This document shows positions 10,537 through 14,322 of a stretch of 14,413 bases of DNA, in pieces. This DNA is from Methylobacterium sp. (lineage in GTDB: Bacteria; Pseudomonadota; Alphaproteobacteria; Rhizobiales; Beijerinckiaceae): positions 1-14,413 of the forward strand of contig JADCCH010000055.1 in NCBI GenBank assembly GCA_020252865.1, given 5' to 3'. The first letter of the stretch is position 1, and every line of letters begins with the position of its first letter. A program made the translations under genes and the position numbers. The notes below the pieces were generated by a model, which worked only from the letters and a program-made list of their open reading frames with translations, searched no databases and was not told the DNA's origin.

Positions 10537-11970
10537 ATGACCTATCCGCGCGATCTTGTAGGCTATGGCCGCAACGTTCCGCATGCGAAATGGCCGGGCG
10601 GGGCCCGGATCGCCGTGCAATTCGTGATCAATTACGAGGAAGGCGGCGAGAACAACATCCTGCATGGGGATGCAGCCTCCGAGGCCTTCCTCTCGGAAAT
10701 CGTGGGTGCTGCCGCATGGCCGGGCATGCGCCACATGAACATGGAATCGATCTACGAATACGGCTCGCGCTCGGGCTTCTGGCGGCTCCACCGCATGTTC
10801 ACCGATCGCAACATGCCGGTGACGGTCTATGGCGTGGCCCATGCCATGATGCGCAACCCGGATGCGGTGGCGGCGATGAACGAAGCGGGCTGGGAAATCG
10901 CCAGCCACGGCCTGAAATGGATCGATTACCGCGATTTCTCCCCGGAAGACGAGGCAAGGCACATCGCGGAAGCCGTCCGCATCCACACGGAGGTGGCGGG
11001 GAGGCGACCATTGGGCATGTATCAGGGCCGTACCAGCGCCAACACCCTGCGCCTCACGCAAGGCGAGGGCGGCTTCCTCTATTCCGCCGACAGCTATGCG
11101 GATGACCTGCCCTATTACGTCGAGGGGCCGAATGCGCGCGGCGGCACGGGGCCGTTCCTCATCGTGCCCTATACGCTCGATGCAAATGACATGCGCTTTG
11201 CCACGCCACAGGGCTTCAATTCCGGCGATCAGTTCTTCGCCTATCTCAAGGACAGTTTCGACACGCTCCATGCCGAGGGCGAGACCGCGCCGAAAATGAT
11301 GTCGATCGGCCTGCATTGCCGGCTCGTGGGGCGGCCGGGCCGCGCGGCGGCACTGGCGCGCTTCCTCGATTACGTAAAGAGCCACGATAAGGCCTGGGTA
11401 GCGACCCGTCTCGACATCGCAAGACATTGGGTGATGACCCATGCACCGGCCGGAGGCTGGAAACCTTCGCGCCTGCCGAAGCCGCTGTTCATGGCGCGAT
11501 TCGGCGGCATTTTCGAGCATTCGCCCTGGGTGGCGGAGGCGGCTTTCGCGGCGGGCCTCGGCCCCGGGACCGATACCGCGCAGGGCCTTCAGGCGGCGAT
11601 GGTCAAGGCCATGCGTGCGGGAACCGAGGCGCAGCAGCGCGCGCTGATCCTCGCGCATCCCGATCTTGCGGGGCGGCTCGCGCTGGCAAAGCAGCTCACG
11701 GCGGATTCGACCAAGGAGCAGGCATCGGCCGGGCTCGATCGCCTCACGCCTGCGGAACTCATGGAGTTCACGCGGCTGAACGAGGCCTACAAGGCGAAAT
11801 TCGGCTTCCCCTTCATCCTTGCCGTGAAGGGCCGGAACAAGGAGGATGTCTTGCGTGGCTTTAAAACGCGAATCGGTAATAATCCTACCCAAGAATTCGC
11901 CACCGCTCTCGACGAGATCGAACGCATTGCGCGCCTTCGCCTCGGCGAAATCCTGCCGGAAACCGCATGA
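10537..11970 (+). CDS. puuE: bifunctional allantoinase (PuuE type) / OHCU decarboxylase fusion
   Basis: A 477-residue fusion carrying two purine-degradation steps. Residues ~1-310 are a PuuE-type allantoinase of the polysaccharide-deacetylase fold, which opens allantoin to allantoate and is unrelated to the amidohydrolase allantoinases. Typical stretches are [31 protein letters not shown] (35-45) and [12 protein letters not shown] (120-131). Residues ~314-475 are an OHCU decarboxylase (UraD) giving S-allantoin, with HPDLAG (H374), [11 protein letters not shown] (E394) and R468. The intervals between these residues equal those of catalytic H67/E87/R161 in the zebrafish enzyme. The protein order is therefore reversed relative to the pathway. 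It starts three bases after uraH, and its TGA overlaps the pgi ATG. Confidence 0.95.
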
Positions 11971-13625
11971 CCCGACATTCTTCCGCCCTCGATACTGCCT
12001 GGGCGTCTCTTCGCGCGCATCATGCCGGCCTCGCCAGCACGCGCATGATGTCGCTTTTCGAGGCGGACAAGGGGCGGTTCGAGGCCTTTTCCGCCAGCAC
12101 CGATGGCCTGCTGATGGATTATTCCAAATGCAAGGTGACCGTCGAGACACGCCGCCTTCTCCTCGCGCTGGCCGAGGCAGCGGATGTGCAGGGCTTCCGG
12201 GACCGGATGTTCGCCGGCGAGGCGATCAATCTGACGGAAAACCGGGCAGTTCTGCATGCGGCGATCCGCGCGCCAAAGGGCGCGCGCTTCACGCTGGGCG
12301 GGCAGGATGTGATGGCGGATGTCCTCGCCATGCGCGAAGCTTGCTTCGCTTTCGCGCGGGACGTGCGCAGCGGCAAGATCGCCGGCGCGGGTGGGGCCTT
12401 CACCGATGTCGTGAATATCGGTATTGGCGGCTCGGATCTCGGTCCCGTCATGGCGGCGGAGGCCCTCCGGCCGTTTCATGATGGCCCGCGCCTGCATTTC
12501 ATATCGAATGTCGATGGCGCGCACCTGGCGGATGTCCTGAGGGGGCTCGATCCGGCGCGGGCGCTGATCCTCGTGGCGTCGAAGACCTTCACGACCATCG
12601 AGACCATGACCAATGCGCGCTCGGCGCGGACATGGCTCGCAAGAGCTTTGGGCGAACAGGCGGTTTCCGATCATTTCGCGGCCGTTTCCACCGCGCGGGA
12701 GAAGGTCGAGGCCTTCGGCATTCCGGCCTCGCGCATGTTCGGCTTCTGGGATTGGGTCGGCGGGCGCTATTCGGTCTGGTCATCCATCGGCCTGCCGCTG
12801 ATGATCGCCATCGGGCCGGAGCGTTTCGCGGAATTCCTTGCGGGCGGCCATGCGATGGACCGGCACTTCCGCGAGGCGCCGGCGGAACAAAACCTGCCGA
12901 TGCTGCTCGGCCTCATCGGCATCTGGCATCGCAATCTCTGCGGGCATCCGAGCCGAGCAGTCATTCCCTATGCGCAGCGCCTCTCGCGCTTTCCCGCCTA
13001 TCTCCAGCAGCTCGACATGGAATCGAACGGCAAGCGCGTGACGCGCGAGGGCGAGCCTGTCTCCATGCCCACCGGGCCGATCGTCTGGGGCGAGCCCGGC
13101 ACGAATGGCCAGCACGCCTTCTTCCAGCTGATCCATCAGGGCACGGATATCATCCCGGTGGAGTTCCTGCTGGGTGCGAAGGGCGAGGATGATCCCGCAC
13201 ACAAAGCAAGATCAAGCGAAGTGGACTCCGGTTCGCGTGAAGATTTTGCGTTTGAAAAGGCGCTTTCCGCCCATCATCCCCTGCTCGTGGCGAATTGCCT
13301 CGCGCAATCGCAGGCCCTGATGCGCGGGCGCACGCTCGCCGAGGCCGGCGGCAATCCGCATCGCGTCTTCCCGGGCGACCGGCCCTCGATCACGCTTGTT
13401 TTCGAGCGTCTCACGCCCTTCGTGCTGGGCCAGCTCATCGCGCTCTACGAGCATCGGGTTTTCGTGGAAGCCGCGATCTGGAACATCAATGCCTATGACC
13501 AATGGGGCGTGGAGCTGGGGAAAGAACTCGCAACGAAGCTTGAGGGTCCGGTGAAGACCGGCGAGGGGCGGGAGGCGCTGGACGGCTCGACCGCGGGGCT
13601 GATAAGAAGGATCCGAGGGGAATGA
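11967..13625 (+). CDS. pgi: glucose-6-phosphate isomerase, with an unusual internal insertion
   Basis: Interconverts glucose-6-phosphate and fructose-6-phosphate in the cytoplasm. The 552-residue protein carries both family signatures: [16 protein letters not shown] (262-277) and GVELGKEL (514-521). Catalytic residues by comparison with E. coli are R267, E352 (MESNGK), H383 (NGQHAFF) and K519, so the enzyme should be active. Its ATG overlaps the puuE stop (ATGA), implying translational coupling to the purine genes. Residues ~412-432 ([19 protein letters not shown] and neighbours) sit between the EFLLGAKG strand and the [13 protein letters not shown] helix. There the E. coli protein has about 12 residues against 35 here. 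That DNA is lower in G+C and palindromic, and is annotated separately. Confidence 0.96.
13200..13262 (+). repeat. in-frame repeat-like insertion inside pgi with imperfect palindrome
   Basis: About 60 bases within pgi have roughly 47% G+C (28 of 60 counted from 13200), well below their surroundings, and add about 20 residues absent from Pgi as I recall it. The core 13216-13236 is an imperfect palindrome: GCGAA pairs with TTCGC and GGA with TCC about a central C at 13226. Outer TCA/TGA extend it to 13212-13240. GAAGTGGA, then CCGGTTCGCGTGAAGA, resembles a dispersed intergenic repeat I recall from Bradyrhizobium and relatives; that resemblance is from memory, not a search. It holds no stop and keeps the frame. 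Confidence 0.6.
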
Positions 13626-14231: not shown

Positions 14232-14241
14232 GCGCCCGAAA

Positions 14242-14267
14242 AAAAGCCGCGGTTTGCCGCGGCTTTT
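14242..14267. terminator. strong intrinsic terminator ending the uraH-pgi operon
   Basis: AAAAGCCGCGG and CCGCGGCTTTT are perfect eleven-base complements around a TTTG loop, ten bases after the hydrolase stop, followed by CTGTTTTT. On the other strand the stem is also followed by a T-run (from the A-tract at 14239-14245), so it may also stop transcription of the minus-strand gene entering from the right edge. Confidence 0.93.
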
Positions 14268-14284
14268 CTGTTTTTCGAGACTGG

Positions 14285-14307
14285 ATCACCGGGTCAACCC
14301 CGGTGAT
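14285..14307. repeat. REP-like palindromic repeat
   Basis: ATCACCGGG-TCAAC-CCCGGTGAT is a perfect nine-base inverted repeat with a five-base loop, placed between two convergent genes just beyond the terminator. The layout (flanks CTGG and GACA, stem with CCGGG, loop near TCAA) matches a REP-like hairpin I recall as common in intergenic DNA of alphaproteobacteria. There is only one copy in this window, so the repeat status rests on recall. It could act as a second terminator stem for the minus-strand gene. Confidence 0.55.
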
Positions 14308-14322
14308 GACAGCGGCGGAGGC

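Follow-up and report, generated by a model that had tools for sequence, protein, structure and literature searches.

A short hairpin-forming repeat lies in frame inside pgi and other conserved enzyme genes of a Hyphomicrobiales genus

Why does the gene of a central metabolic enzyme, glucose-6-phosphate isomerase (pgi), contain a short palindromic segment of unusually low G+C content within its reading frame, and where might such a segment have come from? The question was raised by a preliminary description of a 14,413-nucleotide stretch from Methylobacterium sp. (contig JADCCH010000055.1; hereafter the window), which reported about 60 bases of ~47% G+C in frame in pgi, a palindrome at 13212-13240 and about 20 extra residues thought to be missing in relatives, and which proposed that a Hyphomicrobiales repeat had been captured by the enzyme. 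In window coordinates, the features of the locus are:

11967..13625, plus strand: pgi, glucose-6-phosphate isomerase, the host gene, 552 amino acids (open reading frame list; Pfam PF00342, PGI, E = 9.6e-187, residues 51-546).
13197..13259, plus strand: 63-bp in-frame insert, residues 411-431, between P410 and A432 (protein and DNA alignment against the empty sites of relatives).
13202..13254, no strand assigned: predicted hairpin at its full extent (strand fold of 13198-13260).
13206..13249, plus strand: 44-bp repeat core, GCAAGATC-AAGCGAAGTGGACTCCGGTTCGCGTGAA-GATTTTGC, common to the other copies; its outer arms, 8 bp each, are of the A-rich type (copies listed in register and searched by profile).

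Relative to the empty site of relatives the insert comprises 63 bp, or 21 codons, in frame and stop-free, and because the flanks are alike its ends can be slid by a few bases. Its G+C content (0.476 vs. 0.654 in the remainder of pgi) is the lowest of any 63-base stretch in the gene. Ordinary codon use had been named as counter-evidence; the insert scores poorer than the remaining gene (mean codon score −0.16 vs. 0.17 when the codon table is trained on congener G009), but pgi has one other stretch whose score is about equally low. The size, composition and palindromic character first described were thus borne out, but not the extent of the palindrome, for which predicted pairing reaches beyond 13212-13240 to 13202-13254. 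Folding of the hairpin gave −12.4 kcal/mol as DNA (z = −2.9; 0 of 200 shuffles as good) and −21.3 kcal/mol as RNA (z = −3.3; 1 of 200 shuffles as good).

Comparison with a crystal structure, which the preliminary description had suggested, leaves the insert unmatched: the best PDB match, 4em6, aligns with Pgi at residues 1-408 and 431-549 only. In the predicted structure (mean pLDDT 87.8, pTM 0.90) the insert lies between the strand 398-403 and the helix 436-453, with short helices drawn at 410-416 and 424-434, and residues 411-420 form the lowest-confidence block (mean pLDDT 51). From this model and the varying loop length among relatives, we infer that the insert is probably a surface loop. 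Residues E352, H383 and K519 are invariant in 25 aligned Pgi rows.

Pgi was searched for in 61 genomes (the window's own, and others of the genus, family and order), 40 of which had a match at E ≤ 1e-20; 30 loci were listed, and the comparison comprises 29 rows, with the window included and L075, which does not cover the site, left out. The 21-residue block is present in three of these, namely the window, G004 (98% identity) and G008 (90%), and absent in the other 26 of 29, as the idea of residues missing in relatives had it. Among the empty-site rows are congeners whose Pgi is 81% and 87% identical. The nearest empty site reads GATCCGGCTCTATCC, and the filled site of G008 reads CCCGCGCTC-AAAGC...GAAAAA-GCTCTATCC, whose flanks GCGCTC/GCTCTA may represent a 6-bp target-site duplication.

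Since the window's assembly is fragmented (392 contigs) and 78% complete, the insert might be suspected of being an assembly or binning artefact of one metagenome-assembled genome. However, the same insert is carried by G004 and G008 and recurs in the protein clusters P0001 (11 members, 4 contigs) and P0003 (38 members, 1 contig), and we give an artefact practically no weight. It is just as hard to credit that the site is simply a natural indel hot spot of PGI whose likeness to a repeat arose by chance: the Pgi loop does differ by a few residues among relatives, but the inserted DNA matches a repeat found genome-wide, and nearly the same peptide occurs in unrelated enzymes.

The preliminary description had looked for similar DNA elsewhere, and it is plentiful. 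A BLAST search of the window's own genome with the pgi insert returned 52 matches at E ≤ 10 and 38 at E < 1e-3, the query counted, one example being 91% identical over 46 bp. The common form in this genome is GCATTTTCAAGCGAAGTGGNNNCCGGTTCGCGTGAAGAAAATGC, which in places makes up head-to-tail arrays with a spacing of 57-62 bp. In the near-complete congener G004 an intergenic consensus gave at least 106 BLAST matches, some of them pieces of one copy (40 of 149 candidates were scored). In a sample of 397 genomes and 141 genera of the order, the core pattern with up to two mismatches was present in 64 and 18, respectively, and a backward control pattern gave 0 throughout. A profile of the encoded peptide found matches in all 17 genomes searched in the genus, and some of these matches lie in long open reading frames.

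The repeat is built of an outer stem of 8 bp, an internal loop and an inner stem of 5 bp. Its outer stem covaries: of 41 distinct variants, 18 pair along their whole length when G-T counts as a pair, whereas 5000 shuffles, which ignore relatedness, averaged 3.6 and never exceeded 11; the variants were drawn from 112 of 122 distinct copies after 10 were dropped by core score or first two bases. In the pgi copy both arms differ from the common form yet still pair, with one G-T pair. Several loci (L019, L035, L037, L082, L085 and others) are composite, with a second palindrome (e.g., CATGTCCCCGCGAAGGCGGGGATGG) within the repeat loop and cores of 66-67 bp. The window itself contains two further structures downstream of an isochorismatase-like gene. 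One, at 14240-14269, is a hairpin (AAAGCCGCGGTTTGCCGCGGCTTTT) that looks like an intrinsic terminator; the other, at 14281-14318, is a second, different palindrome whose reverse complement holds TGTCATCACCGGGGTTGACCCGGTGATCCA and which resembles the CGTC-type REPs of the available text of PMC3733652.

In the window's own genome, copies in thyA, serS, cysS and valS encode nearly the same peptide as that in pgi. Alignment at the DNA level of these and two further genes with their empty sites gave a net insert of 60 or 63 bp relative to the nearest empty rows, with one row each of serS, cysS and hemH dropped when the flank motif was not found:

thyA: insert filled in 2 of 8 rows.
serS: insert filled in 3 of 8 rows.
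cysS: insert filled in 2 of 9 rows.
valS: insert filled in 2 of 6 rows.
hemH: insert filled in 2 of 9 rows.
glyS: insert filled in 2 of 10 rows.

Gene names such as thyA, hemH, argC, lutB and gcvPB are presumptive here, read from Pfam matches. The thyA insert is present in G000 and G008 and absent in G004, and the cysS loop is shorter in G003, G005 and G008, and longer in G012, than in the rows giving 63 bp. G004 valS (L154) holds two repeat copies, at residues 727-759 and 793-809, the second 63 residues further on, of which G000 valS has the first only.

Further genes were compared by length, the position of the gap not being located, and here relatives were 20-21 codons shorter for an SDR enzyme (G008 vs. 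G004 and G007), a PALP enzyme like diaminopropionate ammonia-lyase (G009 vs. G006), and segments of argC (G009 vs. G016) and gcvPB (G010 vs. G002). The gcvPB of G008 (G008:C14:143815-144309) showed no length gap against the insert-bearing G010 query and may carry an insert of its own. For a lutB-like gene the matches of several relatives are interrupted where the insert lies; the comparison was less clean with a TPP enzyme and with glcE than with the other probed genes. A Pfam domain spans the insert in PGI, thymidylate synthase, CysRS, the ValRS anticodon domain, ferrochelatase, TPP_enzyme_N, PALP, SDR and the semialdehyde dehydrogenase C domain. The metagenomic protein P0009, which has dioxygenase domains, contains 15 identical residues in its interior (E = 2.6).

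A long open reading frame was not accepted as a gene by itself, given that 5 of 10 repeat-bearing frames scanned (L138, L140, L146, L148, L149, L150, L158, L160, L165, L174) had no Pfam domain; the repeat lay ahead of the domains in L138, L158 and L174, behind them in L165, and between two weak ones in L140. Ten repeat-bearing frames were also scanned outside the genus. Eight had no domain, in L291 the repeat lies behind MerR domains, and L284, a LysR regulator of G126 from another family, was the only one in which the repeat splits a single domain. The L284 copy (ASSSEVDTGSREENA) is in frame at residue 363 of the open reading frame, between two parts of the substrate-binding domain, so gene capture seems to occur outside the genus too. 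In the same genome three tandem copies at 63-bp spacing (G126:C2:24202-24396) are open in one 660-residue frame. At two minus-strand places in G009 (L254:12586 and L252:19296) coding frame +0 enters the repeat and stops just behind it, so that the repeat may form the C-terminus. Capture of a Hyphomicrobiales repeat by a central enzyme, as first proposed for pgi, is supported, but not as a single event: insertion into genes is a recurrent process in this genus.

The intragenic copies share one reading frame, although the repeat is mostly open in four of its six frames: among 122 distinct copies, 118 were stop-free in frame +0, 117 in +1, 109 in −0 and 119 in −1. DNA searches blind to frame placed 5 of 34 copies in G009 (1.19 Mb), 5 of 50 in G000 and 1 of 48 in G004 within genes; the G004 census was taken around the 30 best matches, copies sharing one core sequence count once in G000 and G004, and six G000 copies near contig ends are unscored. 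All 11 read in frame +0 and in the same orientation. Codon score recognized seven of them, three each in G009 and G000 and one in G004. The thyA and serS copies rest on alignment, and the remaining two, in G009, have one flank that falls below the threshold. Since gene calling by codon score did not recognize the thyA and serS copies as intragenic, it undercounts. One shared frame has a chance of ~4e-6 for 10 events, if these are independent and the four frames equally likely. When all six frames were checked around the copies of G009 and G000, no other gene was seen to run through one, and the lone frame −0 case was the antisense of hemH. One G009 candidate (L248:17050), with flanks coding in a shared frame +1, was rejected as intragenic because it falls after one gene's stop and before the next gene's start.

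With the repeat family, its empty sites, the fixed frame, net lengths in multiples of three, stem covariation and recurrence in enzymes observed directly, we are highly confident in the overall explanation that a hairpin repeat inserted in frame into pgi and was retained in a tolerant place. On this account a ~60-bp hairpin-forming Hyphomicrobiales repeat would have entered pgi in an ancestor that three close species share, or passed between these species, and would have been kept because it arrived in frame and its landing place was tolerant. The scatter of copies and their presence or absence among related sequences suggest that the repeat is mobile, and copies probably spread by insertion of a copied hairpin, through some enzyme or a template-switching process, with insertions that are out of frame or disrupt the protein core presumably removed by selection. 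A search for the Y1/RAYT transposase PF01797 as the mover found it in 0 of 17 genomes of the genus, with control matches in 5 of 14 genomes. Compared with MITEs and their target-site duplications, the repeat shows a possible 6-bp duplication only at pgi, in G008, and none evident at thyA, serS, cysS, valS, hemH and glyS.

By the same account the added peptide would be a hydrophilic linker that the enzymes tolerate and that has hardly any function, if any. The insert peptide does not look free of constraint, however. Pooled over 7 of 8 pairs (the second serS pair left out), with the insert taken as 22 codons around the motif, dN/dS was 0.36 in inserts vs. 0.22 outside, amino-acid identity 0.857 vs. 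0.835, and pS 0.18 vs. 0.39, so that silent differences were fewer in inserts; the outside values are rough, as some outside rows run from stop to stop or are cut by contig ends. Conservation that includes fewer silent differences could reflect nucleotide-level constraint, later arrival of the inserts or exchange between copies. A single clade of insert-bearing rows was rejected for serS only (AU p = 0.006; thyA 0.17, hemH 0.24, glyS 0.44), and in serS either one codon received the insert on two occasions or there was loss or exchange of copies.

Copies in genes may also differ in kind from those between genes. An A-rich stem is found in 6 of 10 intragenic copies and in 2 of the 68 typed copies elsewhere (Fisher p = 2e-5). 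The sample is small, its types were assigned by eye, untyped copies near contig ends are left out, and the same data prompted the idea. A genome_contigs search for the exact A-stem pattern, one that may leave out records near the window's own genome, gave only eight stretches, all of them attributed to five genomes of the genus (G004, G005, G006, G009, G016). Among 30 loci listed from 12 repeat-rich genomes outside the genus, the encoded motif was AFSSEV in 28, ASSSEV in 2 and AKSSEV in none. Such counts would fit an A-stem subfamily of its own, spreading through coding sequence and supplying most in-gene copies, distinct from an intergenic T-stem subfamily; but T-stem copies lie in valS, argC, lutB and gcvPB, and the numbers are small, and we regard this separation as doubtful. 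Slightly less doubtful, and still tentative, is the proposal that the genus has a gene-adapted A-stem subfamily of fixed orientation and frame, with its hairpin kept as the bases of the stem change, that contributes a 20-21-residue hydrophilic linker (AKSSEVxxGSREDFAS) to housekeeping enzymes and has no Y1 transposase.

A different reading is that the hairpin or the peptide was recruited for a host-gene function, such as mRNA stability, translation pausing or protein regulation, and that copies are kept by positive use. The single frame and orientation of the 11 intragenic copies from frame-blind searches, the stem pairing maintained while bases change, the conservation of inserts (at least that of the rest in amino acids, and greater at silent sites) and the A-stem enrichment in genes, typed by eye and post hoc, all fit this reading. 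Yet the host enzymes have no obvious common feature, the insert is absent from most aligned relatives, and dN/dS is somewhat higher inside than outside. Stem pairing could instead be kept by quasi-palindrome correction, a mechanism able to maintain pairing without selection. Recruitment is thus improbable on the whole, and insertion of a repeat retained in a tolerant place remains our preferred explanation; the interpretation in the preliminary description is, as a whole, supported and largely holds.

How does this repeat relate to known elements? Rhizobium intergenic mosaic elements (RIME) are mosaic palindromes of rhizobia, and the likeness here is by description, not sequence. Rfam gave no matches in the window at the gathering threshold. 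Rickettsia palindromic elements (RPEs) and their Wolbachia counterpart, as the available portions of PMC2229807 and PMC3767692 describe them, are hairpin repeats that lie between genes and in frame inside conserved protein genes, with lengths in Rickettsia of 105-146 or 100-150 bp. The present repeat works like RPEs but is shorter: it too is palindromic and in frame in conserved genes (pgi and six others with empty-site relatives), whereas its unit is ~60 bp, its net inserts 60 or 63 bp and its hosts Hyphomicrobiales, compared by description and not by sequence.

GTAG and CGTC REPs, according to the accessible text of PMC3733652, are short palindromes, mostly intergenic, with some copies in genes of non-rickettsial bacteria, including tRNA synthetase genes; the CGTC type predominates in Alphaproteobacteria, is not associated with transposase genes and has a negligible share of head-tail dimers. 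The present repeat is likewise a short palindrome with some copies within genes, but by eye the copies listed have no GTAG or CGTC/TGTC end tag with a CCA tail beside the stem, and, unlike CGTC REPs as that text portrays them, it forms head-to-tail arrays at 57-63 bp. Unlike RAYT-associated REPs, it has no accompanying PF01797 Y1 tyrosine transposase in the 17 genomes of the genus. Br-REP1 and Br-REP2 of Bradyrhizobium, palindromic repeats in 3'-UTRs and intergenic regions in the part of PMC5082802 available, resemble it in being palindromic and from Hyphomicrobiales, but have a different consensus, and in-frame gene copies go unmentioned in that part. In-frame palindromes outside Rickettsia, which the preliminary description took to be rare, are already in print as intragenic REPs: the available text of PMC3733652 reports such REPs in several other bacteria. 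In open-licence papers we found no report of the present repeat family inside Hyphomicrobiales genes.

What this genus, known here mainly from metagenome-assembled genomes, offers is a collection of naturally occurring insertions into core enzymes whose empty-site relatives can be aligned, as for Pgi with its 81% and 87% identical empty congeners. Any mechanism must account for the common frame, the orientation and the covarying stem. Because the empty-site relatives are close enough to align, the rise, spread and tolerance of protein-coding palindromes are testable outside Rickettsia.
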